NCBI RefSeq assembly: GCF_033842475.1
Contig: NZ_JAWXYB010000018.1
Span: 310,001-374,000, forward strand
From: Acidiphilium acidophilum
GTDB taxonomy: Bacteria > Pseudomonadota > Alphaproteobacteria > Acetobacterales > Acetobacteraceae
Direction of reading: 5' to 3'
Length of the DNA stretch: 64,000 nucleotides
Numbering within the stretch: the first letter of the stretch is position 1; each line of letters begins with the position of its first letter. Below the pieces are notes generated by a model. The model was given only the letters and a program-made list of their open reading frames with translations, had not been told where the DNA came from and ran no database searches. This document shows positions 4,991 to 63,990 of this stretch, in pieces. Made by a program: the position numbers and the translations under genes.

Positions 4991-5128
4991 GGAAGAAGGG
5001 TTCTTTTTTGAAAAAAAGAACCAAAAAACTTCTGTTAGCTGGGCCGGAGGCACGGTAGTGCCAGTGCCCATGGTCCCGGGTTCGAAAATTTTTTGCTTCT
5101 TTTTTATAAAAAAGAAGTCTTGCTTCCC
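4991..5128. repeat. Nested-palindrome intergenic element, copy R1
   Basis: First of seven full copies in the window. Order: GGAAG flank, A/T-rich hairpin GGTTCTTTTTTG/AAAAAAAGAACC (4999-5022), AAAAAACTT, a GC-rich centre, AAAATTTTTT, second hairpin (5095-5118), CTTCC flank. The two halves are reverse complements of each other. It fills the gap between the ureD stop and the ureA start, inside the urease gene run. Confidence 0.85.
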
Positions 5129-5962
5129 TCAACACGCCCAAACCCGCGGCATTTTCCGCCCCCCTCGCAGCACATTCATCACGCGCAGCACGATCTCGCG
5201 CAGCGTGGCCCCAGTCTGGGCCAGAATTCGGATCAGAAGCAAGCCGTTCCATGCGCTGGCGCCGGCCTGTTCGGTGCCGAGGGCGGCGCGGACGGCGTCG
5301 AGGTGGCGGGCGGCGTCCGGGGCGGCGAGCAGGATGGTGGCGAGGGCGGTGGCGGTCCCGAACAAGGCGCGGTGGCGGCTGGTTGCGAAATCGGGCGGGG
5401 GATGGAGGGAATCCCGGAAGATCAGGCGCATGTCGCGATGGAGTTCGATCGTGTCGGTGAGGTGGAGCGAGTGGATGGTTTCGCCCATGGCGGTGCGGCC
5501 GAAGATCAGGGCTTCGAGGCCGAGAAAGCGCGCGGTGCCGGTGAGGTCGATGCGGAGGTGGCGGGTGAGGGCGGAACGGTCGAACAGGATGGTTTCCTGC
5601 GGCAGATAGTCGAGCGCGGCGCGATCGGCGAGGGCGATGCGGGTGGTGATGCGGGAAGGCGGGTCGGACGGGGTGGCGCGATAGACCCGTTCGGCCCCCT
5701 GGGTGGTGAGGGTGAGGGTGGTGGCTGCGCTGCCGGTGATCGCGATGTCGTGGCGGTCGCCGCCTGCGATGCCGCCGGCGGTGTTGAGCAGGATGGCGGT
5801 GGTTTCGGTGCCGGGTTCGGGGCGGATGATCCGCAGGCGGAGCGGGCCGGATTGGTGCAGACGGTCGAGCACGGTCGCGCCCTCGCGCGGCTTCACCGCC
5901 AGGGCGATGATCCCGGAGGAACGCTGCGCGGTGCTGGTGATGCGGGGCGCCAGCGCGTTCAG
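5129..5962 (-). CDS. ureD: Urease accessory protein UreD
   Basis: Scaffold protein that binds apo-urease and recruits UreF and UreG for nickel insertion. The family core is clear: VLDRLHQSGPLRLRI, LLNTAGGIAGGD, TTQGAERVYRA and QETILFDRS. About 277 residues follow if translation starts at a CTG at 5962, which overlaps the fmdB stop as CTGA. The only alternative in the expected region is a GTG at 5896, which would remove part of the first strand (RSSGIIALA). The start is therefore uncertain. The stop codon lies exactly at the edge of repeat R1, which separates it from ureA. Confidence 0.88.
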   Translation of the reverse strand: MNALAPRITSTAQRSSGIIALAVKPREGATVLDRLHQSGPLRLRIIRPEPGTETTAILLNTAGGIAGGDRHDIAITGSAATTLTLTTQGAERVYRATPSDPPSRITTRIALADRAALDYLPQETILFDRSALTRHLRIDLTGTARFLGLEALIFGRTAMGETIHSLHLTDTIELHRDMRLIFRDSLHPPPDFATSRHRALFGTATALATILLAAPDAARHLDAVRAALGTEQAGASAWNGLLLIRILAQTGATLREIVLRVMNVLRGGRKMPRVWAC

Positions 5963-6279
5963 TGGCCGATCATCCAGGGGCGTTTGCCGGGGAAGGATTT
6001 CTTGACGCTGGCGGTGGGGACGAGCGGTTTGCAGCAGCCGCAGCCCGAGGGGTGCCTGCCGGTGCGGCGCGAGGTTTCCGGGGCGTTGGCGCTGCGCTCG
6101 TTGGTGGCGAAGGCGCGGCGGCGGGCTGATCCCATGATCGCGAGCATCGGGGCGGACAGCAGGGCGCGGGGCGCGGCCTCGGCGCATTCGGGGCAGGGCT
6201 GCGGCTGATCGAACGCGGCGATCGGGGCGATGGTTTCGAAACCGCCGCAGGTGGGGCATTCGTATTCGTAGACCGGCAT
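5959..6279 (-). CDS. fmdB: FmdB-family zinc ribbon protein
   Basis: Small protein of 106 residues with an N-terminal zinc ribbon: MPVYEYECPTCGGFE, then CPEC about 20 residues on. A second CGCC cluster lies near the C-terminus. The FmdB family was named for a neighbour of formamidase in Methylophilus and is thought to be regulatory, though no biochemical role is proven. Here it again sits between formamidase and, unusually, ureD, overlapping ureD by about 4 nt. The ATG at 6279 gives the conserved N-terminus. Confidence 0.85.
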   Translation of the reverse strand: MPVYEYECPTCGGFETIAPIAAFDQPQPCPECAEAAPRALLSAPMLAIMGSARRRAFATNERSANAPETSRRTGRHPSGCGCCKPLVPTASVKKSFPGKRPWMIGH

Positions 6280-6305
6280 GTCGGCTCCGTGGGCTAAGGG
6301 AGGAC

Positions 6306-6442
6306 AGGAAGCAAGCGCTTCTTTTTTGTAAAAAAGAAGCAAAAAACTTTTTTGACTGGGCACGGGCGTTTTCACCGGCACGGACCCAGAGGAGCAAAGT
6401 TTTTTTGCTTCTTTTTTTTCAAAAAAAGAAGTGCTTGCTGAC
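6306..6442. repeat. Nested-palindrome intergenic element, copy R2
   Basis: Full copy between the fmdA stop (14 nt away) and fmdB. Outer flanks AGGAAGCAAGC and GCTTGCTGACCT are complementary. Each half contains a GCTTCTTTTTT/AAAAAAGAAG hairpin, and the inner AAAAAACTTT and AAAGTTTTTT tracts can also pair. This copy shows the proposed four-way fold most clearly. Confidence 0.85.
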
Positions 6443-6455
6443 CTTTTCCCCCGCG

Positions 6456-7688
6456 TCAGAGATCAGGCGCAAGCAGCACATCCGAGCCTGCCATATCGCG
6501 TGGGATCGGTCCATCCGCGGTTGGGTTGATATCGAAGTCGAAGATTTCGGTGGGCAGATAGAGGGTGGCGCAGGCGTTGGGGATGTCGACCACGCCGGAG
6601 ATGTGGCCGTGGACGGGGGCGGTGCCGAGGATGGAGTAGGCTTGCGCGCCGGAGTAGCCGAATTTTTTCAGGTAGTTGATCGCGTTCAGGCAGGCTTGCT
6701 GGTAGGCGACGAAGACGTCGAGGTAGTGCTGGCCGCCTTGGTCGTCGACCGAGATGCCTTCGAAGATCAGGAAGTCGTTGTAGTCGGGTTTGATCGGGCT
6801 GGGTTTGAAGATCGGGTTTTTGATGCCGTATTTGGCGACGCCGCCCTTGATGAGGGAGTGGATGCCGAGGTGAATCCAGCCGGGCATTTCGATGGCGCCG
6901 CAGAAGGTGATTTCGCCGTCGCCCTGGCTGAAATGGAGGTCGCCGACCGAGAGGCCGGCGCCTTTGACGTAGACCGGGAAATACACCCGCGCGCCGCGTG
7001 ACAGATCCTTGATGTCGCAATTTCCGCCGTGTTCGCGGGGCGGGACGGTGCGGGCGCCGGTGGCGGCGGCGGCGTCGCGCGCTTCGCCCTTGAGGCGGCC
7101 CATATGGGCGGTGGCGGCGAAGGGCGCGTTGGCGAGCGGGGGGATGCGGGTGGGGTTGGTGGCGATGAAATCGGTCTCGCGCTTGTTCCAGGTCGCTAGC
7201 AGGGAGGGGTCGGGCAGGCAGCCGATCAGGCCGGGGTGGATCAGGCCGGCGAAGCGGACACCGGGGATGTGGCGCGAGGAGGTGAACATGCCCTTTATGT
7301 CCCAGATCGATTTCTGGGCCTGGGGGAAATGGTCGGTCAGGAAGCCGCCGCCGTTGTTTTTCGAGAAGAAGCCGTTGAAGCCCCATTCGTTGCCGGGGAG
7401 GGTGCCGATGTCGAGGATATCGACCACCAGGAGATCGCCGGGTTCCGCACCTTCGACCGCGATCGGGCCGGAGAGGAAGTGGACGGTGGTGAGGTCGATA
7501 TCGCGGACATCGGCGGCGGAGTCGTCGTTTTTGATGAAGCCGCCGGTCCAGTCATAGGTTTGCAGGATGAAATCGTCGCCGGGTTTGACGGTGGCGACCA
7601 TCGGCACGTCCGGGTGCCAGCGGTTGTGGATCATGTCGTTTTCGTAGGGGGATTGGCTGAGATCGACCTTGATCAACGTTTCCGTCAT
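6456..7688 (-). CDS. fmdA: Formamidase (acetamidase/formamidase family)
   Basis: Cytoplasmic amidohydrolase releasing ammonia from formamide or other short amides. The 410-residue protein matches the FmdA/AmdA family throughout: VDLSQSPYENDMIHNRWHPD at the N-terminus, WEIKG-like SIWDIKGMFTSSRHIPGVRF, PPREHGGNCDIKDLS, and GDGEITFCGAIEMPG. Length is typical for formamidase. An AGGAGA ribosome-binding site precedes the ATG at 7688. It is transcribed divergently from the permease-kinase, sharing a 103-bp promoter region, and leads into fmdB and the urease genes. That layout suggests shared nitrogen-source control. Confidence 0.95.
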   Translation of the reverse strand: MTETLIKVDLSQSPYENDMIHNRWHPDVPMVATVKPGDDFILQTYDWTGGFIKNDDSAADVRDIDLTTVHFLSGPIAVEGAEPGDLLVVDILDIGTLPGNEWGFNGFFSKNNGGGFLTDHFPQAQKSIWDIKGMFTSSRHIPGVRFAGLIHPGLIGCLPDPSLLATWNKRETDFIATNPTRIPPLANAPFAATAHMGRLKGEARDAAAATGARTVPPREHGGNCDIKDLSRGARVYFPVYVKGAGLSVGDLHFSQGDGEITFCGAIEMPGWIHLGIHSLIKGGVAKYGIKNPIFKPSPIKPDYNDFLIFEGISVDDQGGQHYLDVFVAYQQACLNAINYLKKFGYSGAQAYSILGTAPVHGHISGVVDIPNACATLYLPTEIFDFDINPTADGPIPRDMAGSDVLLAPDL

Positions 7689-7750
7689 GGCATTCTCCTG
7701 AAAAACCGGTCAATGATGCGGCAGGGTCCGGCTTATTCGGGCCGGGCTGA

Positions 7751-7768
7751 ATACGGGGTTCGGCGTAT
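7751..7768. promoter_or_regulatory. Candidate operator in the fmdA/kinase divergent promoter
   Basis: ATACG-8 bp-CGTAT is an exact 5-bp-arm inverted repeat in the 103-bp divergent region. A related ACGTA-containing palindrome (CTACGTAG, 12103-12110) precedes the free-standing permease gene. Both could be sites for the LuxR-type regulator encoded at 11220. Sequence similarity is short, so this is a proposal only. Confidence 0.3.
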
Positions 7769-7791
7769 AGGCATGCGCGAGACTGCGGGCG

Positions 7792-16394: not shown

Positions 16395-16455
16395 TAGGCT
16401 GAGGTTGGATTTGAGGGGCGGTTTAGGAAGGCCAGGGGCTCTCCCTCCGGAGCCA

Positions 16456-16666
16456 TTCCAGCGATGAAGAGCATCGCTGGAACCTTCGGCTCCTCCGCCC
16501 CTGGACCCCGTTAAAGGCGGAGCCTTTAAAATCCATCAGTTTTAGGCAAGGGGAGGGCGACCCGGGCCAGATCATTGGAAAATCCGAGGCAGCGCCCTCC
16601 CCTTGCCTAAAACTAGCGGGTTCTAAGGGCTCCGCCCTTAGTGGGGGTCGAGGGGGCAAAGCCCCC
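16456..16666. repeat. Composite of five palindromes between the ABC operon and carD
   Basis: In order: TTCCAGCGATG/CATCGCTGGAA (16456-16482); TTAAAGGC-GGA-GCCTTTAA (16511-16529); a 21-bp inverted repeat with arms at 16539-16559 and 16593-16613 enclosing about 33 bp; CTAAGGGC-TCC-GCCCTTAG (16623-16641); GGGGGC-AAA-GCCCCC (16652-16666). It lies between convergent genes and differs from the R elements. It is probably a REP-like or decayed mobile sequence that may also terminate transcription both ways. Confidence 0.7.
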
Positions 16667-16674
16667 CGCCTTCC

Positions 16675-17541
16675 TTACTCGCTCTTCAAAAACAACAGCA
16701 GTTTATCGATGGCTTCCTGTTTGCCGAGGCCTTCGAGGGCGCCGTATTCGGCGGCGAGGCGTTCGAGGGCGGCTTCGAAGATCTGGCGTTCGGAGAAGCT
16801 CTGGTCGGGTTGGCCGGCGTTGCGGTGGAGGTCGCGCACGACTTCGGCGATCGCCATCGGGTCGCCGGAGTTGATTTTGGCTTCGTATTCCTGGGCGCGG
16901 CGGGACCACATGGTGCGTTTGACCCGGGCGCGGCCTTTGAGGGTGGCGAGCACCTCGTCGAACGATTTTTTGCTGGAGAGTTTGCGCAGGCCGGCGGTGC
17001 GGGCCTTGTTGACCGGCACCCGCAGGGTCATGCGGTTCTCATCGAAGGTGATGTGGATGAGTTCGAGTTTCTGGCCGGCGATTTCCTCGGCGGCGATGCG
17101 ATCGACCTTGCCGACGCCGTGGGTCGGGTAGACCACGTGATCGCCGGGTTTGAAGTTTTCCGCCTTGGCGATCGCGCGTTGTGGCAGCACCGGGCGGGGG
17201 CCGGGCGGCGGCATGGCATCGCGTTCGACCGCCGGTGCGGCGGCTTCGGCCTCGGGCGCGGGCATCTCGGGTTGATCGTCCGGCGGCTCGCTCTCGGGGG
17301 CGGGTTTCGCTGTGGGTTTGGCGGCGGTTTTTGAAGCGGCGGTCATGTCGGGGGAGGAGCCTTTTTTCGTTGCCGGCGGCGGAGCCGCGCTGTCGGGTCG
17401 GGTCGATTGAGGAGGGGCAGCGGATTTGGATCGGGCCGGTTTTGCCTTGGATTCGGAAGGAGTGGTTGACGTGTCGCCGGTTTTGCGCGACGCGCCCTTG
17501 CTGGCGGCGGCCGCGCGCGACCGCGGCTTGGTTTCGGTCAT
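16675..17541 (-). CDS. carD: CarD/CdnL-family RNA polymerase-binding regulator with long N-terminal extension
   Basis: Transcription factor that binds the RNA polymerase beta subunit and stabilises open promoter complexes. Residues about 130-288 form the CarD domain: FKPGDHVVYPTHGVGKVDRI, then the helical part with VKRTMWSRRAQEYEAKINSGD. The first 130 residues are a low-complexity Lys/Ala/Pro/Ser then acidic extension, making the protein (288 residues) much longer than the usual 160-170. The start at 17541 has a GGGG-type ribosome-binding site. An ATG four codons upstream (17553) is possible, and the open frame extends over fdxA without support. Confidence 0.9.
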   Translation of the reverse strand: MTETKPRSRAAAASKGASRKTGDTSTTPSESKAKPARSKSAAPPQSTRPDSAAPPPATKKGSSPDMTAASKTAAKPTAKPAPESEPPDDQPEMPAPEAEAAAPAVERDAMPPPGPRPVLPQRAIAKAENFKPGDHVVYPTHGVGKVDRIAAEEIAGQKLELIHITFDENRMTLRVPVNKARTAGLRKLSSKKSFDEVLATLKGRARVKRTMWSRRAQEYEAKINSGDPMAIAEVVRDLHRNAGQPDQSFSERQIFEAALERLAAEYGALEGLGKQEAIDKLLLFLKSE

Positions 17542-24741: not shown

Positions 24742-25667
24742 GCTGTGGTGGGCATTGAGGGGGCGCGCATGGCGGGGGCGCGCATCGGCTTTTCGAGAAT
24801 CAGCGTGGTCCATTCGCCATCGTCGATCCGTGATTTCAGCACCAGCCCGTGTCGTCGGTGGGCCGAGAGCACCCAGCGGGCCTGACGGTCGAGCAGGCCG
24901 GCGAGGATCGCGATGCCGCCGGGGGCGAGTTTGGCCGCCAGCTGATGCGCCATCGCTGTGAGCGGACGGGCGAGGATGTTGGCGAAGACCAGATCATACG
25001 GTGCGTGACGGCGCAGCACCGGGCTGAGCCAGCCATCGGCGCGGCGGGCGCGGAACAGGCGGGCGGTGCCGTTGAGCGCCGCGTTGGCGGTGGCGACCCG
25101 GACCGCCCGCGCGTCGATATCGGTGGCGAGCACCGGGCGGCCCCAGATTTTCACCCCGGCAATCCCGAGCACGCCCGAGCCGGTGCCGAGATCGAGAATA
25201 TTGAGCGGGCGGCGGCGCTTGGCCATCATTTCCAGGGCGAGCAGGCAGCCGCGCGTCGAGCCGTGTTCGCCGGTTCCGAAGGCGAGCCCGGCATCGACCG
25301 TGATGCTGTGGCGCCCGGCGGGCTTTTTATCCTTGATGTGCGTGCCGCGAATGGCGAATCGATCGCCGATTTTCTGTTCGGGAAAGCCCTGGTAGCTGCG
25401 CGCGAGCCAGCCGCCGGCAGGAACCCTGATCCGCTCTATCTCGGGGGTGATGCCGCTCGCGGCTTCCGCGAGGATCAGCGCGGTCACCAGATCGCCGTCC
25501 GAGCCGTCGATTTCGCGCAATCCCTCGACGACCCAGGTGTTGGTGGCTTCGTTAAGAAAGAAGCCGACGGTGCGGCAGCAGCAGCCGAGCGCGGCCTCGA
25601 AGGCTTCGAGGGCGGTGGCCGGTACGGTGAGGACGATGCGTTCGAGATGTTCGGGTTGGGGCATCAC
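24711..25667 (-). CDS. prmA: Ribosomal protein L11 methyltransferase PrmA
   Basis: SAM-dependent methyltransferase that trimethylates ribosomal protein L11. The 318-residue protein has an N-terminal substrate-recognition domain, the PrmA signature DAGLAFGTGEHGSTRGCLLALE, the SAM-binding LDLGTGSGVLGIAG, and catalytic-loop motif VFANILARPL. The last 25 residues extend beyond the usual end and run through a terminator. The start overlaps the upstream helicase stop (ATGA). Confidence 0.95.
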   Translation of the reverse strand: MMPQPEHLERIVLTVPATALEAFEAALGCCCRTVGFFLNEATNTWVVEGLREIDGSDGDLVTALILAEAASGITPEIERIRVPAGGWLARSYQGFPEQKIGDRFAIRGTHIKDKKPAGRHSITVDAGLAFGTGEHGSTRGCLLALEMMAKRRRPLNILDLGTGSGVLGIAGVKIWGRPVLATDIDARAVRVATANAALNGTARLFRARRADGWLSPVLRRHAPYDLVFANILARPLTAMAHQLAAKLAPGGIAILAGLLDRQARWVLSAHRRHGLVLKSRIDDGEWTTLILEKPMRAPAMRAPSMPTTAKTRIDPPFA

Positions 25668-27841
25668 GCGCGCTCCACGAAACGGTCGAGCACGCGTTTT
25701 TCGCCGGCGGTCTCGAACCGGATGTCGAGCCGGTCGTCATCGGCGTCGATGACGATGCCGTAGCCGAATTTCTGGTGAAACACGCGGGTTCCTTCGGTGA
25801 GTTTGTCGGCGCGGGCCGGGCGGGACGGGGTGTTCCAGGCGTCGTCACGCCGGGCCAGCAGGGGGGTTGCGGTGGCGAATACCGGCGGGGCGGACAGGCG
25901 CTGGTCGCGCGCGAGGCTCGCCGAGCCGCCGAGGGTGATGAAATCGGCCGGCAGTTCCCCGATGAAGCGCGAGGGCACGCTCGATTGCCAGTTGGCGTAG
26001 ATGCGCCGGTTGGCGCAATGCGAGATGATCGCGCGCTGTTTGGCGCGGGTGATGCCGACATAGGCGAGGCGGCGTTCCTCCTCCAGCGACTTGGCCCCGC
26101 CTTCGTCGAGCGCGCGCTGGTTGGGAAATACGCCTTCCTCCCAGCCGGGCAGGAAGACGGTGTCGAACTCCAGACCTTTGGCGGCATGCAGGGTCATCAG
26201 GAACACTTTATCGTCATCCACCTCGTTATCATTGTCCATAACGAGCGAAACATGTTCGAGGAAGCCTTCGAGCGTGTCGAAATCGGCCAGCGCGCGGACG
26301 AGTTCCTTGAGGTTCTCGATCCGCCCGGCGGCATCCGGGGTTTTCTGCTCCTGCCACATCGCGATGATGCCGCTTTCGTCGAGCAGGGTGGACAGGGTGA
26401 TGACATGGCCGTCGCGTTTGAGGGTTGTTCGCCAGTCCGCGAATTTGGCGATCAGGTCGCGCAGCCCGTCGCGTGCCTTGCCCCGCAATGTCGCTTCCGC
26501 CGCGATCCGGGCGGCGGCTTCGGCGAGGGGGACGCCATCGGCGCGGGCGCGTTCGTGCATCGCGCGCAAGGCGGTGTCGCCCAGGCCGCGCTTGGGGGTG
26601 TTGACGATGCGTTCGAAGGCGAGGTCGTCGGCGGGTTGGGCGAGGACGCGGAGATAGGCGATGGCGTCGCGGATTTCGGCGCGTTCGTAGAAGCGCAATC
26701 CGCCGATGATGCGGTAGGGCAGGCCGATCGCGATGAACCGTTCCTCGAAGGCGCGGGTCTGGAACCCGGCGCGGACCAGCACGGCACATTCGGCGAGTTT
26801 GTGCCCCTCGCGGCGGAGGGTTTCGACGCGGGTGGCGACGGCGCGGGATTCCTCGTCGGAATCCCAGAAGGCGAAAACCTCGACGTTCTCGCCGGTGGCA
26901 TCGGTGCGGCCCGCGTGCAGGGTTTTGCCGAGGCGGCCTTCGTTATGGGCGATCAGGCCGGAGGCGGCGGCGAGGATCGGGGCGGTCGAGCGGTAATTGG
27001 CTTCGAGCCGGACGATTTTCGCGCCCGGGAAATCGGCCTCGAAGCGCAGGATGTTCTCGATCTCGGCACCGCGCCAGGAATAGATGCTCTGGTCGTCATC
27101 GCCGACGCAGCAGATGTTTCTGGAATGCTGGGCGAGCAGGCGGAGCCAGTAATACTGGACCAGATTGGTGTCCTGGTATTCATCGACCAGAATGTAGCGG
27201 AACCGGCGATGGTAGTCGGCCAGAACCTCGGGGTCGCGGCGGAGCAGATCGTAGGCGAGCAGCAGCAAGTCGCCGAAATCGCACGCGTTGAGGGCGCGCA
27301 GGCGGTCCTGATAGGCGGCATAGAGGTCGCGGGCGGATTCGGCACCCCAATCGATATCCTGATCGCGCGGCACCGCATCCGGCAGCAGGGCACGATCTTT
27401 CCAGCGCTGGATTGTGCCCATCAGCCCCTGCGGGGTGAAGCGCTTGGTGTCCATCCGGCGGGCTTCCATCACCTGTTTGAGCAGGCGCAACTGATCGTCG
27501 GTATCGAGGATGGAGAAGCTCGATGTGCGGTCGACCCGCTCGGCGTAGCGGCGCAGCATACGGGCGGCGAGGGCATGGAAGGTGCCGAGCCAAAGGCCCT
27601 CGGCTGGCTGGTCGAGCAGGGCCGAAACCCGCTCGCGCATTTCGCGCGCCGCCTTGTTGGTGAAGGTGACCGCGAGGATCTGGCTGGGGAAGGCGCGGCG
27701 GCTGAGCAGGATATGCGCGAATCTGGTGGTCAGCACCCGGGTCTTGCCGGTGCCGGCGCCGGCCAGGACCAGGACGGGGCCGTCGGTTGCTTCCACCGCT
27801 TCGCGCTGGGCCTGGTTCAGGCGGGTGAGGTAGTCGGTCAT
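25664..27841 (-). CDS. uvrD: UvrD/PcrA-family 3'-5' DNA helicase
   Basis: SF1A DNA helicase of 725 residues for repair and replication-fork or transcription conflicts. Motifs in order: LNQAQREAV (Q motif), LAGAGTGKTRVL (Walker A), VTFTNKAAREM (Ia), DEYQDTN (II), GDDDQSIYSWRGA (III), LEANYRS (IV), TLHAAKGLEFDTVFLPG (V) and ERRLAYVGITRAK (VI). The C-terminus carries a small tudor-like strand set (FHQKFGYGIVID). Repeat R3 lies 19 nt before its start, between it and metF. Confidence 0.96.
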   Translation of the reverse strand: MTDYLTRLNQAQREAVEATDGPVLVLAGAGTGKTRVLTTRFAHILLSRRAFPSQILAVTFTNKAAREMRERVSALLDQPAEGLWLGTFHALAARMLRRYAERVDRTSSFSILDTDDQLRLLKQVMEARRMDTKRFTPQGLMGTIQRWKDRALLPDAVPRDQDIDWGAESARDLYAAYQDRLRALNACDFGDLLLLAYDLLRRDPEVLADYHRRFRYILVDEYQDTNLVQYYWLRLLAQHSRNICCVGDDDQSIYSWRGAEIENILRFEADFPGAKIVRLEANYRSTAPILAAASGLIAHNEGRLGKTLHAGRTDATGENVEVFAFWDSDEESRAVATRVETLRREGHKLAECAVLVRAGFQTRAFEERFIAIGLPYRIIGGLRFYERAEIRDAIAYLRVLAQPADDLAFERIVNTPKRGLGDTALRAMHERARADGVPLAEAAARIAAEATLRGKARDGLRDLIAKFADWRTTLKRDGHVITLSTLLDESGIIAMWQEQKTPDAAGRIENLKELVRALADFDTLEGFLEHVSLVMDNDNEVDDDKVFLMTLHAAKGLEFDTVFLPGWEEGVFPNQRALDEGGAKSLEEERRLAYVGITRAKQRAIISHCANRRIYANWQSSVPSRFIGELPADFITLGGSASLARDQRLSAPPVFATATPLLARRDDAWNTPSRPARADKLTEGTRVFHQKFGYGIVIDADDDRLDIRFETAGEKRVLDRFVERA

Positions 27842-27860: not shown

Positions 27861-27996
27861 CAGGAAGCGCTTCTTTTTTGGAAAAAAGAAACAAAAAACT
27901 TTCGGTTGTCTGGGGCATGGGAGATTTTACCGGCACGGGCCAATCGGGATCAAAGTTTTTTTGTTTCTTTTTTTTCAAAAAAAGAAGCGCTTGCCT
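27861..27996. repeat. Nested-palindrome intergenic element, copy R3
   Basis: Full copy between metF and uvrD (both minus strand). GGAAGCGCTTC flank and hairpin on the left, TTTCTTTTTTTTCAAAAAAAGAAGCGCTT on the right in halves that mirror each other. The right half is translated as the end of metF, whose stop at 27950 lies inside the element. Confidence 0.85.
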
Positions 27997-28936
27997 CCTT
28001 CGCCTTCACCCCCAGAATCCGCGCGATCGCGTAGGTGAGGTCGGCCCGGTTCAGCGTGTAGAAATGGAATTCGTCGATCCCATTGGCCTGCAAGGTGCGG
28101 ACCTGCTCGGCGGCGATGGCGGCGGCGACCATCTGGCGGGTTTCGGCATCGTCGTCGAGGCCGTCGAACATTTCGGCCATCCAGCCGGGGACGTAGGTGC
28201 CGCCCATTTCGCTGATCCGCTTCGCCTGCGCGAAGTTCGAGACCGGCATGATGCCGGGGATGATCGGGGCGGTGATCCCGGCGGCGAGGGCGCGGTCGAG
28301 GAAGTCGAGGAAGTTTCCGGTCTCGAAGAACACCTGGCTGATCGCGCGGCTGGCCCCGGCATCGAGCTTGCGCTTGAGGTTGTCGAGGTCGGCCTGCGGA
28401 TTTTCGGCCTGGGCGTGGGTTTCGGGATAGGCGGCGACCGAGATGTCGAAATCGGCGACGCGCTTGAGCCCGGATACGAGGTCGGCGGCGTATTCGTAGC
28501 CTTGCGGATGGGGCTGGTAGGGCGCTTTCGACGGCGGATCGCCACGCAGGGCGACGATATGGCGCACCCCGGCATCCCAGTAGCGGCGGGCAACATCGTC
28601 GACCTCGCCGCGTGAGGCACCGACGCAGGTGAGGTGGGCGGCGGGTGTCAGGCTGGTTTCGCGCACGAGGCGGGTGACGGTGGCGTGGGTGCGCTCCTGG
28701 GTCGAGCCGCCGGCACCGTAGGTGACCGAGACGAATTGCGGGGCCAGCGCTTCGAGCCGGCGGATGCAGGACCAGAGCTGGGTTTCCAGCGCCTCGGTTT
28801 TGGGCGGAAAGAACTCGAACGAGATCGCCGGGGCGGGCGCGCGCGGCGCGCGGGTGGGCAGCGGCGCGATGCGCGGGCTCGCGAGCCAGCGTTCGAGCGA
28901 GGCCTGCGGTAACGGGCTTGGGGATTCGTGGTTCAT
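27950..28936 (-). CDS. metF: 5,10-methylenetetrahydrofolate reductase MetF
   Basis: Flavoenzyme making 5-methyl-THF for methionine synthesis. The 328-residue protein has ISFEFFPPKTEALE at the start of the barrel, FVSVTYGAGGSTQERT, IVALRGDPP and the FETGNFLDFLDRA region. An AGGAG site precedes the ATG at 28936, so the longer upstream frame is rejected. The last 14 residues (ASASFFEKKETKKL) are encoded by repeat R3, lengthening the protein past the usual end; the original stop was presumably lost when the element arrived. Function should be unaffected. Confidence 0.95.
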   Translation of the reverse strand: MNHESPSPLPQASLERWLASPRIAPLPTRAPRAPAPAISFEFFPPKTEALETQLWSCIRRLEALAPQFVSVTYGAGGSTQERTHATVTRLVRETSLTPAAHLTCVGASRGEVDDVARRYWDAGVRHIVALRGDPPSKAPYQPHPQGYEYAADLVSGLKRVADFDISVAAYPETHAQAENPQADLDNLKRKLDAGASRAISQVFFETGNFLDFLDRALAAGITAPIIPGIMPVSNFAQAKRISEMGGTYVPGWMAEMFDGLDDDAETRQMVAAAIAAEQVRTLQANGIDEFHFYTLNRADLTYAIARILGVKAKEASASFFEKKETKKL

Positions 28937-41393: not shown

Positions 41394-42692
41394 ATGGCCA
41401 CCAACATCCTGATGCCGGCCCTGTCGCCCACCATGACCGAGGGCACCCTCGCGAAATGGCTGAAAAAAGAGGGCGATACCATCAAATCCGGCGATGTCAT
41501 CGCCGAGATCGAGACCGACAAGGCGACCATGGAGGTCGAGGCGGTCGATGAGGGCGTCCTCGGCAGAATTCTGGTCGCGGCGGGTACCGAGGGCGTTGCG
41601 GTGAACGCGCCGATCGCCGTGCTGGTCGATGCCGGTGAGGCGGTGCCGAGCGCGGCAGCGGCTCCGGCTCCAAAAGCTGAGGCTCCCGCACCAAAGGCCG
41701 CCGCCGAGGCGACGCCGGCCCCTGCGCCGCGCGGCGAACCCAAGGCGAACGGGCACGATGCCAGCGATCATGGCGAGCGTATTTTTGCCTCGCCGCTCGC
41801 GCGCCGCATGGCGCAGCAGGCCGGACTCGATCTGGCGGGCATCACAGGGTCCGGGCCGAACGGGCGCATCGTCAAGGCCGATATCGATGCCGCCCGCGGC
41901 AAGGCACATGCCCCGGCCAGCGCGCCGCAAGCGACACAAGCCAGCCTGCCGCAGGCGGTCCCCGTCAGCGCGCCGCAGGCGGCACCGATCACCGCGCCGC
42001 ACGATGCTGTGCCGCATTCCTCGATGCGCAAGGTCATCGCCAGGCGGCTTCAGGCCGCGAAGCAGACGATCCCCCATTTCTATCTGTCGATGGATGTCGA
42101 ACTCGACGCCCTGCTGAAACTGCGCGCTGACCTCAATGCCCAGTCGCCCAAGGATGGCGCGGGCGCGTTCAAGCTTTCGGTCAACGACCTGATCATCAAG
42201 GCCAGCGCCATCGCGCTGCGCCGGGTCCCCGCCGCCAATGCCAGCTTCACCGACGAGGCCATGATCCGCTATCACGATGTGGATATTTCGGTTGCCGTCG
42301 CGATTCCCGATGGACTGATCACCCCGATCGTCCGCAAGGCCGACCAGAAAGGCCTCGCCGCGATCAGCAACGAAATGAAGGACCTCGCGGCCCGCGCCAA
42401 ATCCGGCAAGCTGAAACCCGAGGAATTCCAGGGTGGATCGTTCTCGATCAGCAACCTCGGCATGTTCGGCATCACCAGCTTCTCCGCCATCATCAACCCG
42501 CCGCAAGGAGCCATCCTCGCGATCGGCGCGGGCGAGAAACGCCCGGTGGTGCGCGGGTCGGAACTCGCGATCGCCACGGTGATGACCGTGACGCTGTCGT
42601 GCGATCACCGCGTGGTCGATGGCGCGATCGGGGCGGAGTTCCTCGCGGCGTTCAAGGCGATCGTCGAGGCGCCGTTGAGTTTGATGCTTTAA
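41394..42692 (+). CDS. pdhC: Pyruvate dehydrogenase E2, dihydrolipoamide acetyltransferase
   Basis: Core acetyltransferase of the complex, 432 residues. One lipoyl domain ([17 protein letters not shown]), a peripheral-subunit-binding domain ([35 protein letters not shown]), an Ala/Pro/Gln linker, and a catalytic domain ending in the active-site [16 protein letters not shown] with catalytic His. Repeat R4 begins 8 nt after its stop and separates it from the GNAT and lpdA genes. Confidence 0.97.
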
Positions 42693-42700: not shown

Positions 42701-42834
42701 GGAAGGTGTTCTTTTTTGAAAAAAAGAACCAAAAAACTTTTTTGAGCTGGGCCGTGGGCTGTGGCGTCCGTGCGCCCCGGACCCGGATCAATGAAAGTTT
42801 TTGCTTCTTTTTACAAAAAGAAGCCTTCCCTTCC
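42701..42834. repeat. Nested-palindrome intergenic element, copy R4
   Basis: Full copy inside the pdh gene run: GGAAGG flank, GTTCTTTTTTG/AAAAAAAGAAC hairpin, AAAAAACTTTTTT, GC-rich centre, AAAGTTTTT, GCTTCTTTTT/AAAAAGAAGC hairpin, CCTTCC flank. It ends 2 nt before the GNAT start codon. Confidence 0.85.
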
Positions 42835-42836
42835 TG

Positions 42837-43331
42837 ATGGCCAGTATCTCCCTCCGCCCGGCCCAACCGGATGACGTGCCCGCGCTGCTCGGCCTCGTTC
42901 ACGACCTCGCAATTTACGAGCGCGCCCCCAATGCCGTCGAAATGACCGCGCCGATGCTCCATGCGGCCTTGTTCGGCGATGCGCCGCTGGCCCGCGCGGT
43001 CGTTGCCGTCGCCGACGACATCCTCGGCTTCGCGGTCTATTTCACGACATTCTCGACCTGGACCGGCAAGGCCGGGCTTTATCTGGAAGATCTGTTCGTC
43101 AAACCCGAAGCGCGGGGCCGGGGCATCGGCAAGGCGCTCCTGCGGCATCTGGCCGGCGAGGCGATCCGCCGCGATTGCGCCCGGCTCGAATGGCAGGTGC
43201 TCGATTGGAACGAGCCCGCCATCGCGTTCTACAAATCCCTCGGTGCCGAACCGCTCGATGAATGGACGCGCTATCGCGTCAAAGGCGCGGCGCTCGCGGC
43301 CCTCGCCAATCAGGAGACCCTTCATGGCTGA
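42837..43331 (+). CDS. GNAT-family N-acetyltransferase
   Basis: 164-residue acetyltransferase; substrate unknown, though the sequence resembles diamine (spermidine-type) acetyltransferases. Visible motifs: SLRPAQPDDVPALLGLVHDLAIYE at the N-terminus, the acetyl-CoA loop VKPEARGRGIGKALLRHLAGEA, and WNEPAIAFYKSLGAEPLDEW. The ATG at 42837 directly follows repeat R4 and has no visible ribosome-binding site. The stop overlaps the lpdA start by 8 nt, so lpdA may depend on its translation. Confidence 0.9.
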   Translation: MASISLRPAQPDDVPALLGLVHDLAIYERAPNAVEMTAPMLHAALFGDAPLARAVVAVADDILGFAVYFTTFSTWTGKAGLYLEDLFVKPEARGRGIGKALLRHLAGEAIRRDCARLEWQVLDWNEPAIAFYKSLGAEPLDEWTRYRVKGAALAALANQETLHG

Positions 43332-46143: not shown

Positions 46144-46269
46144 GGCTGCTTTTTTGAAAAAAAGTAGAAAAAAACTTCCGCTCCCTGCGGCACGATCCGG
46201 TCACGCCACCGTGCCCCAACCAAAGAGAGTTTTTTGGTTCTTTTTTGCAAAAAAGAACCCTTCCTTCCT
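46144..46269. repeat. Nested-palindrome intergenic element, copy R5
   Basis: Full copy beginning at the base after the ratA stop and ending 11 nt before the threonine aldolase start. Its GC-rich centre matches the other copies only when read on the minus strand, so R5 is inverted relative to the rest. Hairpins: CTTTTTTGAAAAAAAG-type on the left, GGTTCTTTTTTGCAAAAAAGAACC on the right. Confidence 0.85.
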
Positions 46270-50470: not shown

Positions 50471-50525
50471 AGACCGCCTTGGGGCCGACGATCATCGCGC
50501 GTGAGATCCGGTTTGTTTCCAGGTC

Positions 50526-50613
50526 AAAAAAAATGGCGACACTTTCGTGCCGCCAAGTTTAGGGAGGAAACGTCCAAGAAAGCAAACATAGCGAACAAGC
50601 CGCCGTGTTGCTG
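50526..50613 (-). ncRNA. Candidate small RNA (about 90 nt) with CCUCCC motif
   Basis: On the minus strand a promoter (50620-50648) is followed about 90 nt later by a Rho-independent terminator. Its hairpin is GGCGGCAC-GAAA-GTGTCGCC (50535-50554), with an eight-T run at 50526-50533. Between them lies UUUCCUCCCU (complement of 50561-50570), an anti-Shine-Dalgarno stretch like those of alphaproteobacterial trans-acting sRNAs. No open frame explains the unit. A lutB leader with attenuation is the alternative, but lutB appears to have its own promoter. Confidence 0.5.
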
Positions 50614-55297: not shown

Positions 55298-55299
55298 GT

Positions 55300-57924: not shown

Positions 57925-57972
57925 TGGCGGGGTTATACGCCGGGGGCGGCGGTGGCCCAAATTCGGGGCTGT

Positions 57973-58106
57973 GAGGAAGGAAGGGCTACTTTTTTGAAAA
58001 AAAGTAGCAAAAAACTTCTATTCGCCGGGGCGTGGCGGTGAAAGGTCACGGACCCAGAGGAGCAAAGTTTTTTTGCTTCTTTTTGTTCACAAAAAGAAGG
58101 CCTGCC
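57973..58106. repeat. Nested-palindrome intergenic element, copy R6
   Basis: Full copy between the hypothetical gene at 58123 (stop 16 nt away) and ruvC. GCTACTTTTTTG/AAAAAAAGTAGC on the left, AAAGTTTTTTTGCTTC and TTTTTGTTCACAAAAAGAAG on the right. The left stems of R6 and R7 are identical. Confidence 0.85.
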
Positions 58107-58122
58107 TTTGCCTTTTCCCTAT

Positions 58123-58644
58123 TTAGTTACGATATCGTAACGATATAGGCGTGACTGATTGCGGATTGGGAGCGGCAAATTTTCGCTTTGGGGGGCGGAA
58201 ATGGGTGGTGTGGTCGAGGTCAATGATGCGGCGGATCGGGGTTGGTTGGGGCGCGGTGTGAGCGCGCGGTGCCGGGGGTTCGACCGGAGCGACGGGCTCG
58301 CGGACGGCCGGGGCGGCGGGAATGGGGGTTGTGGGATATGGATCGTCCAACCAGCCAGAATCGTGCGGGCGCGGCGCGGGGGTGCGCGGGCGGCGGGGTT
58401 TTGCGGGTGTGGGATTGGGGGTGTGCCGTTGTTCGCGGGTGGGCGCGAGCGGGTTGGATAGCGCTGCGACGGCTTTCGCGAGGCTGGCGGCGATGCTGTC
58501 GAGCAGGAGGAACAGAAGTTCCATGAATTTTACGATGGCGGGATGATGGTGATCGGCGCCCGCCTCGTAGGCATGGCGGAAGTCTTCAAATATGACTTTG
58601 AAGTTTTCGGTCAAGGCTTCACGAGGGGGAGATGCTTGGGTCAC
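58123..58644 (-). CDS. Hypothetical proline-rich protein between two repeat copies
   Basis: 173-residue protein of no recognised family. Residues 1-65 look helical (LTENFKVIFEDFRHAYEAG, then an amphipathic or hydrophobic FMELLFLLLDSIAASLAKAVAAL). The remainder is Pro/Arg-rich and probably disordered. It is flanked by R6 and R7 within an otherwise conserved yebC-ruvC interval. The codon pattern on this strand (GC-rich third positions) favours a real gene. Confidence 0.6.
   Translation of the reverse strand: MTQASPPREALTENFKVIFEDFRHAYEAGADHHHPAIVKFMELLFLLLDSIAASLAKAVAALSNPLAPTREQRHTPNPTPAKPRRPRTPAPRPHDSGWLDDPYPTTPIPAAPAVREPVAPVEPPAPRAHTAPQPTPIRRIIDLDHTTHFRPPKRKFAAPNPQSVTPISLRYRN
58126..58141. 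repeat. 16-bp perfect palindrome at the end of the hypothetical gene
   Basis: GTTACGATATCGTAAC, self-complementary over 16 bp, overlaps the last codons of the hypothetical gene and is followed by a further CGATAT. It could be a regulator site or a chance feature of the gene end. Confidence 0.5.
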
Positions 58645-58702
58645 ACGGGACTATAAGCATAGGAGGCGGGAGGTGAGAAAGCGGAGAGAAGGGAAGGGCA
58701 GG

Positions 58703-58836
58703 CGAGGAAGGGCTACTTTTTTGAAAAAAAGTAGCAAAAAACTTTTGTTATTTGGGCTATGGGCGGTGTCAGGGGAACGGGCTCAGAGTCAGAGAGTTTT
58801 TTGGTTCTTTTTTGCAAAAAAGAACTCTTTTTGCCT
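58703..58836. repeat. Nested-palindrome intergenic element, copy R7
   Basis: Full copy between yebC (stop 47 nt away) and the hypothetical gene (start 58 nt away). GGCTACTTTTTTG/AAAAAAAGTAGC on the left, GGTTCTTTTTTGCAAAAAAGAACT on the right, which is the same right hairpin as R5. Confidence 0.85.
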
Positions 58837-58883
58837 TATCTTTTGCGAAACTGATTGCTTCGCTGGGCTCGCGGTGGCGTGGG

Positions 58884-59633
58884 TCAGGAGTCGAGGGATT
58901 GCATGATGGTGTCGGGGATTTCGAAGTTGGCGTAGGTGTTTTGGACGTCGTCGCTGTCTTCGAGGGCGTCGATGAGTTTGAGGACGGCGCGAGCGGCGTC
59001 TTCGTCGAGGGTTGTGGTGGTGGTGGGGCGCCAGTCGAGTTTGGCGGTTTCGGGTTCGCCGAAGTGGGATTCGAGGGTATCGCGGACGGCGAAGAAGGAT
59101 TCGACGGCGCAGGTGATTTCGTGGTGGTCGGTGGTTGATTGGGCGTCGTCGGCGCCGGCTTCGATGGCGGCTTCGAGCATGGCGTCGGCGCTGGCGGCGG
59201 TGGCGGGGTAGCGGATGAGGCCGATGCGGTCGAACATGAAGGAGACGGAGTTGGATTCGCCGAGGGTTCCGCCGTGTTTGGAGAAGGCGGTGCGGATATC
59301 GGAGGCGGTTCGGTTGCGGTTATCGGTGAGGGCTTCGACGATGATGGCGATTCCGGCGGGGCCGTAGCCTTCGTAGCGGACTTCGACGTAGTCATCCGAG
59401 CCGTTTTGTCCGGCGGCTTTTTTGATGGCGCGTTCGATGGTGTCGCGGGGCATGTTGGATTGGCGGGCGGCGGCGCAGGCGGCGCGGAGGCGGGGGTTGG
59501 CGGCGGGGTCCGGCAGGCCTTGTTTGGCGGAGACGGTGATTTCGCGGATGAGTTTGGCGAATTGCCGGGCGCGGCGGATGTCCTGCGCGCCTTTGCGGTG
59601 CATGATGTTCTTGAACTGGGAATGTCCGGCCAT
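58884..59633 (-). CDS. yebC: YebC/PmpR-family transcriptional/translational regulator
   Basis: 249-residue DUF28 protein: [32 protein letters not shown] at the N-terminus, [46 protein letters not shown]. In other bacteria such proteins regulate transcription or relieve ribosome pausing. One feature differs from many homologues: [12 protein letters not shown] replaces the more usual KWANIKHKKAAQD. It belongs to the yebC-ruvCAB neighbourhood. Confidence 0.95.
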
Positions 59634-59640
59634 GGTCTGC

Positions 59641-59679
59641 CTCGATGGGTTCGCTCGATGGGTTCGCTCGATGGGTTCG
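59641..59679. repeat. Three tandem 13-bp repeats in the yebC leader
   Basis: CTCGATGGGTTCG occurs three times head to tail directly upstream of the yebC start (8 nt away). On the minus strand each unit reads CGAACCCATCGAG. Copy number could vary and alter the leader. Confidence 0.85.
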
Positions 59680-59837
59680 GTGTCGAGGGGGGCGGCATAG
59701 CAGGGGTGGGCGGGTTTGTCAGGGTGGGCGGGGACGCGATGGGATGGGGAAATGTGGCTCACCAGACGGAGCGTGGCGATCAGCGCCAGACCGATCTCAT
59801 TTTGCGAGAATTGGCAGGATTGTCAGGATTTTTTTCA

Positions 59838-59853
59838 CTCACGCGTTCGTGAG
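59838..59853. promoter_or_regulatory. Inverted repeat upstream of the sigma-54 promoter
   Basis: CTCACG-CGTT-CGTGAG, perfect 6-bp arms, 35 bp before the -24 element. The placement suits an enhancer-binding regulator. Two direct CAGGATT repeats lie just upstream (59813-59830). Confidence 0.45.
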
Positions 59854-59888
59854 ATTGGTAAATTATTGAAATTACGATTAATTCATGT

Positions 59889-59905
59889 CTGGCATGGTTT
59901 TTGCT
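59889..59905 (+). promoter_or_regulatory. Sigma-54 (RpoN) promoter of the PEP-CTERM gene
   Basis: CTGGCATGGTTTTTGCT matches the -24/-12 consensus YTGGCACGRNNNTTGCW at all fixed positions except one (C to T), with the required 10 bp between GG and GC. Predicted start near 59916, leaving a leader of about 23 nt. PEP-CTERM genes are known in other bacteria to be driven by RpoN with the PrsK/PrsR pair. Confidence 0.75.
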
Positions 59906-59938
59906 TAAGTTTTTAGACGCACTTATTGAGGATCATTT

Positions 59939-61000: not shown

Positions 61001-61090
61001 TTAACCTTGCTGAGAAGCGGTTGATCCATGCCAATTTTTATATTTTCTTCCCGAACCACAGTGACATCGATCGTTTCGACCAAGGAGTTT
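61001..61090 (-). pseudogene. Detached C-terminal SEC-C motif of the IS-split gene
   Basis: A 29-codon frame ending in TAA at 61001 encodes KLLGRNDRCHCGSGRKYKNW and a short tail. This matches the SEC-C zinc-binding motif (GRNDPCPCGSGKKYKxC[CH]) except that the third metal Cys is Trp. It is on the same strand as the N-terminal part at 62326-63792, with the insertion sequence between, so it is read as the severed end of that gene. An in-frame TAG (61091-61093) precedes it. Confidence 0.6.
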
Positions 61091-62395: not shown

Positions 62396-63792
62396 CGCAG
62401 CGAATCGGCGCAAGACCTACGCTTATGGAAAATAAGGGGAGTCGTGAGCTCGTTCGCCCGTTTGTATTCGATAGAGTCTTCATCCGACCATTTTTCGCAT
62501 TCGAGAAGAATAAGATCTTCTGAGTTCTCCGCAGCGAATCTCGGGGCGTCTGTTGCTATTCCTACAATTTTTTTCAGATCAGGAAATTTATTTTTAGCGC
62601 TGCCGCAAGCTATTTTTAGTAAATTTTGACGAAAAGTTCTGTAGATATCATAATTCGAAATTCTTAATTTTCTAATCTGAAGAAAAACATAGCCTTTGGT
62701 TCTATCGAATGAAGTCATAAAGATCATTTTTCGTTGGATACTGTCCTCATCAAGTTCTTCATAAGGAAACGAATTAATAGCTTCGGCTATCCCGTTTGCT
62801 AGAGCGCGACGGGCCAAACGTCCCTCCTTAGCCATCTCTTGAACGGCGCTTGGTCCAAACGGAGTTGTATTACCTAATGCGGTCCCGTCCAGTATGTGTC
62901 TGCTGGTCTTTTGAATCAATCTATCCCAAAGATACGATATTTTATTGGCTTCATTCCGCTCACGATATTGCGCGGACGCTGCAAAACGTTTCCACTCTCC
63001 CTCACCAATTACCAAGAAATTACAGCTATTTTTCTGTGGGCCGATGCGATATTTCTCGGCCTTATCATCAAAATTCAGGAAGTAGTGAGCAAGTAAATCT
63101 TCTTCTCCAGCGTACACTAGACCATCATATTTTTTGATTACACGCTCTTTTTCAACAAAATACTCTGTTAGATCTTTTATCGTATCCAATTCTTTCAGTA
63201 TGATTTCAAGATTGTGACTATCTAATACATGAGTAGGATCATCTTTATTAAGTGATATCATAAATGGGAGCTGTAAAGGTAATTTTACATCACCGTATCC
63301 GATAGCCATACTGCCATATACGTTTTCAGTTGAAAATCCTTCGCAGGCTTCTTTTGCGCCGTGTGCGATAATTATCTGAAATATATTAATTTTAGAACGA
63401 TCGTTAGGCAATGATATATGATTTTTGCACTTTGGATCAGAAAAAATAGGTCTGCCGCTTGTGATGTGCCGCTTTGCGCCTCTTGCTGTATTTATCTGAT
63501 CGGTTATTACTTTTTTGTGCCAACGCGTCCATGCAAGTTCAAGATCGTCAGTATCGTTGGATATGCGGACCTCACGATCAAAAAATAAGAAAATATTCTC
63601 GTCTGAGATGGCTATCAAGTCGCACATTTCAGTTCCAGGGCTGCGGAACGGATTTGCATAACTCCATAAGCGGAGGAACGTTCGGTCGCAAAGCTGAGCA
63701 AGTAGACGCTCAGTAGCCGTCACACCCAAAGATTTTGAGATCACTTCCAACCGTCCAATAAAATATAAAATGCACGAGCATTCACCAAGCAC
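62326..63792 (-). pseudogene. SEC-C-family protein of unknown function, 3' end displaced by the IS
   Basis: About 470 residues of an AT-rich, foreign-looking gene. The N-terminal region ERLLAQLCDRTFLRLWSYANPFRSPGTEMCDLIAISDENIFLFFDREV is a conserved block of a widespread uncharacterised family that often ends in a SEC-C motif. Its acidic pattern (E55, D58, D72, E74) is faintly like a PD-(D/E)xK nuclease core, which is speculation. Host coding ends around 62385; the last 20 residues (NAWMRVDHGNCSIEKA) come from IS sequence and overlap the transposase start. Start is a GTG at 63792, with internal TTG/GTG alternatives. Confidence 0.65.
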
Positions 63793-63935
63793 TCTCTAAC
63801 TGAACTCTTGAAACGAATCAAGAACGGACATGGAGTATTCGATCCAGCCTAAAGCGTCACGAAGTAAATGCTATGTCAACGGTCTTGGAATGATGCAGTT
63901 TTAGTTTCACGACCGCTTTTCGGGCCGCTCTTAAT
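63793..63935. other. Promoter region of the AT-rich gene, otherwise featureless
   Basis: On the minus strand a TTGACA (complement of 63874-63879) lies about 85 nt before the GTG start, but no good -10 follows at normal spacing. Nothing else is recognised up to the half repeat. Confidence 0.3.
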
Positions 63936-63990
63936 GATCAAAGTTTTTTTTGCTTCTTTTTTGTTCACAAAAAAGAAGATTCTTCTACCT
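63936..63990. repeat. Half copy of the nested-palindrome element (R8)
   Basis: Only the right half is present: TGATCAAAGTTTTTTTTGCTT, then the hairpin CTTCTTTTTTGTTCACAAAAAAGAAG. The left hairpin and centre are replaced by unrelated AT-rich sequence, so the element is truncated at the border of the foreign segment. Confidence 0.8.

Follow-up and report, generated by a model that had tools for sequence, protein, structure and literature searches.

A short hairpin unit dispersed at gene ends in Acidiphilium acidophilum and among late genes of tailed phages: a possible mRNA punctuation element

The window analysed here is a 64,000-nt stretch of the Acidiphilium acidophilum genome (G000). It holds seven full copies (c1 to c7) and one half copy of a palindromic element, all present where a preliminary description of the same DNA had placed them, with boundaries accurate to a few bases. 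The copies and their neighbours are the following.

c1, 4991–5128: full element; hairpins 4999–5022 and 5095–5118; between ureD (ends at 5129, minus strand) and ureA (4687–4989, minus strand), according to Pfam; kept in the relatives G001 and G012.
c2, 6306–6442: full element; hairpins 6317–6340 and 6406–6433; after a formamidase/acetamidase gene (6456–7688, minus strand); kept in G001, G004 and G010, absent from G012.
c3, 27861–27996: full element; hairpins 27870–27891 and 27962–27989; overlaps the 3' end of an MTHFR-family ORF (27950–28936, minus strand), the stop codon of which lies inside the element; a uvrD-like gene (25664–27841) is next.
c4, 42701–42834: full element; hairpins 42708–42729 and 42803–42824; a 2-oxoacid dehydrogenase acyltransferase gene (41394–42692) on one side, a GNAT gene (42837–43331) and then a Pyr_redox (lpd-like) gene on the other; full in G001, G004, G010 and G012, with just the left half in G005 and no element in G002 or G003.
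c5, 46144–46269: full element; hairpins 46146–46167 and 46236–46259; preceding gene 2 nt away, next gene 21 nt away; in G004 and G010 the right half is accompanied by a degraded left part; absent from G002, G003, G005 and G012, where -1 to 4 bp separate the same two genes.
c6, 57973–58106: full element; hairpins 57985–58008 and 58076–58099; in the yebC-ruvC gap; kept in G001.
c7, 58703–58836: full element; hairpins 58712–58735 and 58803–58826; after a yebC/TACO1 gene (58884–59762, minus strand); no orthologous copy found among the relatives' loci compared.
63936–63990: single unit with T-run, hairpin (63953–63978) and flank.

The pattern T6-N2..6-A6 gave 17 partly overlapping matches in the window, all inside these eight copies, against 0.00 expected from 100 dinucleotide shuffles. 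The preliminary description had taken a 135-bp nested palindrome as the element. Its copies are real, but the recurrent unit is the half, because a single hairpin at threshold was found in 36 out of 75 elements from the fetched own-genome stretches and the window (some with a degraded partner) and in 7 out of 14 elements from an unselected 400-kb sample. The elementary repeat is a unit of about 50 nt, comprising a purine flank, an AT-rich hairpin and an A6-C-T4 tail; each of the seven full copies consists of two such units in inverted orientation, and lone units are common. We observed full inverted doublets, back-to-back (RL) doublets and singles. Units vary symmetrically in stem sequence, T/A-run length and loop size, and form subfamilies, such as those with GCTAC/GGTTC stems, within which the centres are similar. 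The 53 own-genome stretches (L001–L053) were picked with an exact hairpin pattern among the first 100 of its 241 places and are therefore enriched in perfect hairpins; loci L054–L173 and the phage loci were likewise found by exact patterns. We counted 364 perfect ten-pair stems, in sets partly fetched by the perfect pattern.

The stem variants GGTTC, GCTTC and GCTAC remain paired, as had been reported from the first reading of the sequence. Since MAFFT alignments misregister the right hairpin, pair counts were made on arms extracted by script. The first hairpin finder itself demanded pairing, which inflates its local z values (+7.9, +8.2, +10.1, +11.1, +6.6 and +8.5), so the local-pairing test was repeated with units found without that demand. 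When units in the unselected stretches were located by T-run, A-run and tail alone, 27 out of 33 distinct units were paired at all four clamp positions and the other 6 at three. Own arms paired above re-dealt arms in the three larger sets, with z +7.2 for the unselected stretches (33 units), +13.2 for other records (92 units) and +5.1 for phages (53 units); a fourth set, too small at 4 units, gave z +0.8. The proposal of a conserved structure with compensatory stem changes is thus upheld. The halves had also been described as matched reverse complements, able to fold together as a four-way junction or a cruciform. In many copies the stems of the two hairpins (H1 and H2) differ, and they do not covary: H1–H2 cross-pairing did not exceed the re-dealt level in the own genome (z -1.7 and -1.3), other records (-2.1 and -1.8) and phages (-4.1 and -3.6), a result that the bias of the first finder does not favour. 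Own-genome centre arms showed no gain in pairing over re-dealt ones (z +2.9, in the wrong direction), and those of other records showed a weak one (-2.8); in the outer flanks the re-dealing test found no covariation. Because pairing covaries within each hairpin and not between the two, the whole-element junction or cruciform is unsupported, and the re-dealing test rejects it as the conserved structure. Stem mismatches oriented to the neighbouring gene carried no RNA-sense signature: the informative ones, only 14 in number, comprised 6 G-U and 8 A-C. Finally, two candidates were rejected by eye: a terminator formed by the purine flank pairing with CTTC, followed by T6, which does not work with the stem variants GGTTC and GCTAC, and a fixed phased A-tract bend, given that loop and run lengths vary.

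The genome-wide count that the preliminary description had called for gave 241 hairpin cores in the own genome (exact pattern). Among 395 genomes of the family Acetobacteraceae the core was present in 133, with 0 to 1210 copies each, and core plus tail occurred in 0 out of 381 sampled Alphaproteobacteria from other families; these exact-pattern scans miss variants, and the genus, family and class samples overlap. Copy number ranged from 0 to 346 within one genus, so many relatives do without the element. At three shared sites, c4, c2 and c1, all picked because the element is still present there, six distant comparisons showed 350 out of 362 identical positions in the unit, 258 out of 338 in the centre and 254 out of 329 in the flank, with three G001 rows left out and gene ends included in the flank counts. 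Identity was therefore 97% in units versus 76–77% in centres and flanks (Fisher p 1.6e-16 and 1.7e-15). At seven sites compared between G000 and G001, the full element was present in both genomes at six (c4, c6, c1, c2, E142150 and E145695) and only the right hairpin was missing from G001 at the seventh (E156994); hence no fresh insertion within the species was seen among them. Empty sites exist in relatives and are too diverged for a target-site duplication to be read, and a non-exhaustive look revealed no parent transposon with the same ends.

Genes were called with our own hexamer gene finder, not a standard one. From stop codon to element the median distance was 25.5 nt for L001–L053 taken with the window, and 20 nt for the unselected 400 kb; the corresponding medians to start codons were 110 and 128 nt. 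When the 400-kb elements were placed at random in their own gaps, the mean median was 66 nt, although, with 15 gene ends, a few of the 1000 placements were as low as observed (minimum 17.5). Single units in hosts had the hairpin on the stop side more often than not (48 vs 21, p 0.0016), the bias being modest in the other host records that form part of this count (30 vs 18). Elements were called inside genes in 6 cases in other records and in 0 in the own genome. Several sit where two genes of a likely operon meet (ureD|ureA, response regulator|histidine kinase, pth|ychF, rel/spoT|acpS and 2-oxoacid dehydrogenase E2|GNAT-lpd-like), operon membership being deduced from gene order and known gene neighbourhoods.

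Unexpectedly, elements were also found between late genes of tailed phages, in particular at terminase|portal and scaffold|major head junctions and beside the tail sheath gene. All 48 phage full elements with a called gene on each side were between codirectional genes, and the median stop-to-element distance was 17.5 nt for full and single elements. The same late-gene junctions are marked in diverged phages, with portal proteins down to 46% identity, and several copies are kept; single units in phages had no orientation bias (10 vs 10). The element-bearing phages appear to infect bacteria of the acetic-acid family. No unit occurs in the 37.4 kb covered of the 53.2-kb genome of phiKX1, a named Komagataeibacter phage, the terminase and portal genes of which are 15 nt apart. 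A host copy found no match in the phage database, and a phage piece found one of 34 nt. Mycobacteriophages also have short repeated sequences at gene borders, namely stoperators and start-associated sequences; to our knowledge, these are unrelated to the element in sequence and structure.

The element had been presented as undescribed, and no catalogued family was found for it: Rfam 15 at the gathering threshold gave two matches in the window, neither at an element, the open-access literature held no description, and neither GTAG nor CGTC was conserved beside the hairpin in the unit profiles (129 own and 257 other units, read from the consensus). REP/BIME sequences of the GTAG and CGTC superfamilies are short extragenic palindromes with copy numbers of up to hundreds or more per genome, found as singles and as head-head or tail-tail dimers with spacers mostly of 20–100 bp (PMC3733652). 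Our element resembles them in being a short extragenic palindrome with many copies, singles and inverted dimers; it differs in lacking the tag, in its AT-rich runs within GC-rich genomes, its conserved A6-C-T4 tail and its recurrent phage late-gene junctions. REPINs are inverted doublets with a spacer, also found as singles, whose ends pair together into one hairpin and which are tied to RAYT genes (PMC3116915). The element shares with them the inverted doublet, the spacer and the singles, but its hairpins pair only internally (cross z -1.3 to -4.1). Nor was a transposase able to move it, which the preliminary description had proposed to look for, identified. PF01797 (Y1 transposase, RAYT) had no match in G000 or in 17 out of 20 further genomes, including those with 1210, 988 and 894 copies, so RAYT/IS200-type mobilisation finds little support. 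One weak match each was obtained in G004, G045 and G317 (346, 553 and 659 copies), that is in 3 out of 13 element-rich and 0 out of 7 element-poor genomes.

These comparisons bear on a reading in which the element is a selfish palindromic repeat of REP/MITE type that does nothing for its host, is spread by some recombinase, is tolerated just after stop codons and is a passenger in phages. Its dispersed and patchy distribution within one family, the REP-like mixture of singles with inverted and back-to-back doublets, the subfamilies with similar centres, a copy on plasmid pACMV3 and the restriction of Y1 matches to element-rich genomes would all fit. We nevertheless consider it unlikely, given the much higher identity of units than of centres and flanks at shared sites, the several copies that phages keep at the same junctions and the lack of Y1 matches in G000 and in the three sampled genomes richest in copies; the CGTC REP families, for their part, have no dedicated transposase either (PMC3733652). 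A bidirectional transcription terminator, in which the centre and a T6 on each strand end transcripts from both sides, is quite unlikely too. The inverted A6..T6 tails flank the centre, elements lie at gene ends, and a centre composed by hand has a folding energy of -32.1 kcal/mol (z -7.2). A general terminator scan marked only 2 out of 6 full copies, with two weak sites at c2 and one at c6, all of 3 G-C pairs, and its totals were near the shuffled level (26 vs 17.3 ± 4.2 and 20 vs 17.3 ± 5.0); a stricter rule of at least 4 G-C pairs marked 0 out of 18 element-bearing gene ends, element included. Read in one direction the unit hairpin is followed by A6 and in the other by the flank, without a conserved GC-rich stem and U-tract. 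Own-genome centre arms show no covariation, and single units have no centre. In addition, 13 out of 32 codirectional full elements in hosts and 22 out of 56 in phages leave 35 nt or less to the next start, hardly room for a promoter, and only 8 out of 39 full own-genome elements were called between convergent genes.

Least probable to us is an action at the DNA level, either as a site for a hairpin- or palindrome-binding protein or as a recombination linker for host-phage module exchange, with template switching keeping the palindromes perfect. Near-perfect Watson-Crick stems without wobble bias and the same sequence at phage gene and module borders agree with it, and template switching is reported to homogenise inverted-repeat arms (PMC8604942). 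The symmetrical variation of stem, runs and loop is unlike a fixed protein site, and template switching alone would not explain why the T and A runs are conserved where sites are shared. Instead, its constant shape and its position indicate, as far as sequence can tell, that the element may help to mark or protect mRNA ends and is not junk DNA. We tentatively favour, at somewhat less than even confidence, a punctuation element for mRNA that would act between cistrons and at 3' ends and is built from either one hairpin unit or two independent ones; its layout is REP-like, without the REP tag. In its most likely mechanism, the stop-adjacent hairpin would block 3'-to-5' exonucleases on the mRNA of the upstream cistron, and the unpaired A/U-rich tails and the non-conserved centre would be the site where the transcript is cut, by an RNase E-like enzyme, or ends. 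Where two hairpins are present, the second may cap the downstream mRNA at its 5' end or, if the genes are convergent, protect the 3' end of the other gene; tailed phages would use the same element between late structural genes. The sequences themselves establish the anatomy of the unit, the pairing of each hairpin on its own, the conservation where sites are shared and the position after stops in likely operons and phage late modules, and the events proposed in RNA and their enzymes build on these. Several results count against this reading: the wobble test gave it no support, single units in phages are unbiased in orientation and those in other host records only modestly biased, a lone hairpin is weak (-9.1 kcal/mol for one unit folded), many relatives do without the element, 4 out of 39 full own-genome elements were called between divergent genes, and the identity figures come from three sites picked for still having the element.

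Bacterial repeats of this short palindromic kind are mostly regarded as selfish DNA whose use is unclear. This family is kept at shared sites amid changing surroundings, inside likely operons and at the same late-gene junctions in diverged phages, so the question of whether such a repeat serves gene expression becomes directly testable. No comparable system was found described for these organisms in the open-access literature, and the units could, if the mechanism holds, offer ready-made parts to set expression ratios within operons. A broader and more doubtful idea is that Acetobacteraceae and their tailed phages have a common, dedicated transcript-punctuation code, in which a putative host factor reads the hairpin-A6 unit and sets polycistronic cut sites and cistron lifetime; patchy copy numbers would then arise because phages carry and spread the unit. 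Among known structures, those of the malE-malF and papBA type also lie between cistrons and, in one model, guard a 3' end or, once RNase E has cut, a 5' end (PMC5927463). They are individual structures, whereas the element is a dispersed repeat common to host and phage with a putative protective action. A faint likeness to 3'UTR RNA families was seen at c4, which matched Plastid-psbA-3/-4 of Rfam below threshold (24 bits, with 48–57 needed).

We confirmed all eight places at which the preliminary description had located the element in the window:

4991-5128, full element (c1)
6306-6442, full element (c2)
27861-27996, full element (c3)
42701-42834, full element (c4)
46144-46269, full element (c5)
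57973-58106, full element (c6)
58703-58836, full element (c7)
63936-63990, single unit

The GC content of the window was 64.8%, and the pattern T6-N2..6-A6 had 17 matches in it, all inside these copies (0 expected after shuffling). The hairpin TTCTTTTTN2-8AAAAAGAA was found 241 times in the 4.16-Mb genome of A. acidophilum (G000) and its reversed control 0 times. The window and 53 fetched G000 stretches, which are the surroundings of listed pattern matches, contained 75 elements, 39 with two hairpins and 36 with one according to our own threshold. An unselected 400-kb stretch of G000 contained 14 elements (7 full and 7 single), a density that extrapolates to ~145 elements in the genome. Single units of one orientation, spaced ~0.7-1.1 kb apart, followed one another in two fetched stretches: four in L022 and three in L023. 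We also found that an MTHFR-family reading frame (window 27950-28936) extended into c3, the repeat supplying its last codons and stop.

The unit profile, based on 129 G000 units and 257 units of other records, comprised a purine-rich flank (~GGaAAGgAAG), a 4-5 bp clamp, a T-run, a short loop, an A-run, the clamp again and A6-C-T4. In the other records (mostly Acetobacteraceae; at least 120 stretches from a pattern scan), the hairpin-A6-C-T4 unit was combined with different centres and also formed back-to-back pairs; thus, the elementary repeat is the half, two of which in inverted orientation form the 135-bp element.

Varying stem bases stay paired, as first proposed: in 135 G000 hairpins, clamp exchanges (CG/GC/TA or TA/AT) kept pairing. 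Those hairpins came from a search favouring pairing, and the local test, in which 3' arms were re-dealt among units, was redone on units identified solely from their runs and tail. Local pairing exceeded chance in the unselected stretches (33 units, z +7.2) and, for units outside the scan pattern, in other records (92 units, z +13.2) and phages (53 units, z +5.1); the fetched G000 stretches had 4 such units, too few for the test (z +0.8). Pairing between the two hairpins (H1 and H2) of full elements, in contrast, was at or below chance (43 G000, 61 other-record and 46 phage elements), and the two hairpins are therefore independent. Centres and outer flanks gave no consistent pairing signal in G000 and other-record full elements, and an RNA-specific G-U tolerance test was negative (6 G-U vs 8 A-C).

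Based on borders from our own gene finder, the median distance from stop codon to element was 25.5 nt in the selected set (74 gene ends), 20 nt in the unselected set (17) and 18 nt in other records (174), and the distance to start codons was 110, 128 and 62.5 nt, respectively. The hairpin adjoined the stop in 48 out of 69 host single units (by set 12/15, 6/6 and 30/48) and in 10 out of 20 phage single units. Elements often lay between codirectional genes (ureD and ureA; response regulator and histidine kinase; pth and ychF; rel/spoT and acpS; IMPDH and rsmB-like; 2-oxoacid dehydrogenase E2 and GNAT-lpd-like). At most 35 nt separated the element from the next start codon in 13 of the 32 codirectional full elements, which is evidence against a terminator in the strict sense, even though sites at c2 and c6 were marked as weakly terminator-like in a general scan. 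Independent hairpins beside stops, in likely operons and around an unconserved, A/U-bordered centre, would be best fitted by an mRNA-end element; the protective-structure model is that described for malE-malF and papBA (PMC5927463). REP and REPIN were used as defined in PMC3733652 and PMC3116915, respectively. A search of an open-access library returned no description of this hairpin-unit family. Rfam matches in the window were 5_ureB_sRNA (3930-4219, +) and suhB/mmgR (50519-50590, -).

Two exact patterns recovered 38 and 36 stretches from IMG/VR contigs, giving 68 loci, 64 of which were analysed (GC > 0.52). Wherever genes were called on both sides of a phage full element (48 cases), they were codirectional. 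PHROGs-named neighbours in the contigs searched placed elements between terminase large subunit and portal, between scaffold and major head, around tail sheath, and by tail fibre, baseplate wedge and endolysin. By protein clusters, full or single elements recurred at the junctions of sheath-like and next gene (10 loci), terminase-like and portal (8) and scaffold-like and major head (4); some of these loci come from near-identical phages or from parts of a single phage, and the PHROGs search covered some members only. Portal proteins of element-bearing phages were as low as 46% identical. One contig, picked because it bears units, had 9 full elements in 27.0 kb, vs 7 in 400 kb of host. A search with one sheath protein gave three named phage records, of which two Komagataeibacter xylinus phages were nearest (50% identity); phiKX1 had no unit in the 37.4 kb examined.

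We compared sites with the second same-species genome (G001) and related genomes (G002, G003, G004, G005, G010 and G012). The c4 site was full in G001, G004, G010 and G012, had the left half only in G005 and was empty in G002 and G003; c2 was present in G001, G004 and G010 and absent from G012; c1 was present in G001 and G012 and absent from G004 and G010. At the c5 site, the flanking genes touched (-1 to 4 bp) in G002, G003, G005 and G012. The gap between yebC and the ruvC-like gene (window 57960-58884; 924 bp, two elements, no called gene) was 77 bp in G004 and G010 and almost none in G002 and G003. With c4, c2 and c1 taken together in six distant comparisons, identity was 350/362 in units, 258/338 in centres and 254/329 in flanks (difference assessed by Fisher test). 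This conservation at shared sites, together with the repeated placement in phage late modules, argues for function.

The right hairpin of another G000 full element (site E156994) was missing in G001 (L253), and this site shows directly how a full element may turn into a half. A second, longer palindromic repeat of ~250 bp (CCAGGGGCTC...GCCCCTGGACCCCGTTAAAGG...) lay between convergent genes at window 16421-16680, with purine/pyrimidine outer flanks of the AT-element kind; in G004 and G010, a copy of it occupied site E156994.

Hairpin counts ranged from 0 to 346 over 13 genomes of the genus, with 152 in the second same-species genome (83% complete). Across the family, the hairpin was present in 133 out of 395 genomes and 42 out of 99 genera, with a maximum of 1210 copies and at most 3 in reversed controls. 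When the pattern was made stricter by adding the tail, it matched none (0/381) of the genomes that the class sample took from other families, and 2/5 of those it took from this family. A Y1 transposase matched in 3 of the 20 genomes tested, all three element-rich, with no match in G000 or in the three tested genomes with most copies. The coordinates of an element in G003 (C2:12324-12457) were identical to those of a copy on plasmid pACMV3 of Acidiphilium multivorum. Among the matches listed, exact ones also occurred in records labelled Clostridia, Defluviitaleaceae, Nitrospirae and Acidobacteria; low-GC records with the first three labels (L058, L072, L109, L112, L156, L073, L075, L107, L158, L074) matched unit and tail exactly, and the purine flank was mostly absent among those inspected. 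Finally, a Microviridae record had a 34-nt exact match, and Mycoplasmopsis and Bacteroides plasmids had matches of 28-30 nt (96-97%).
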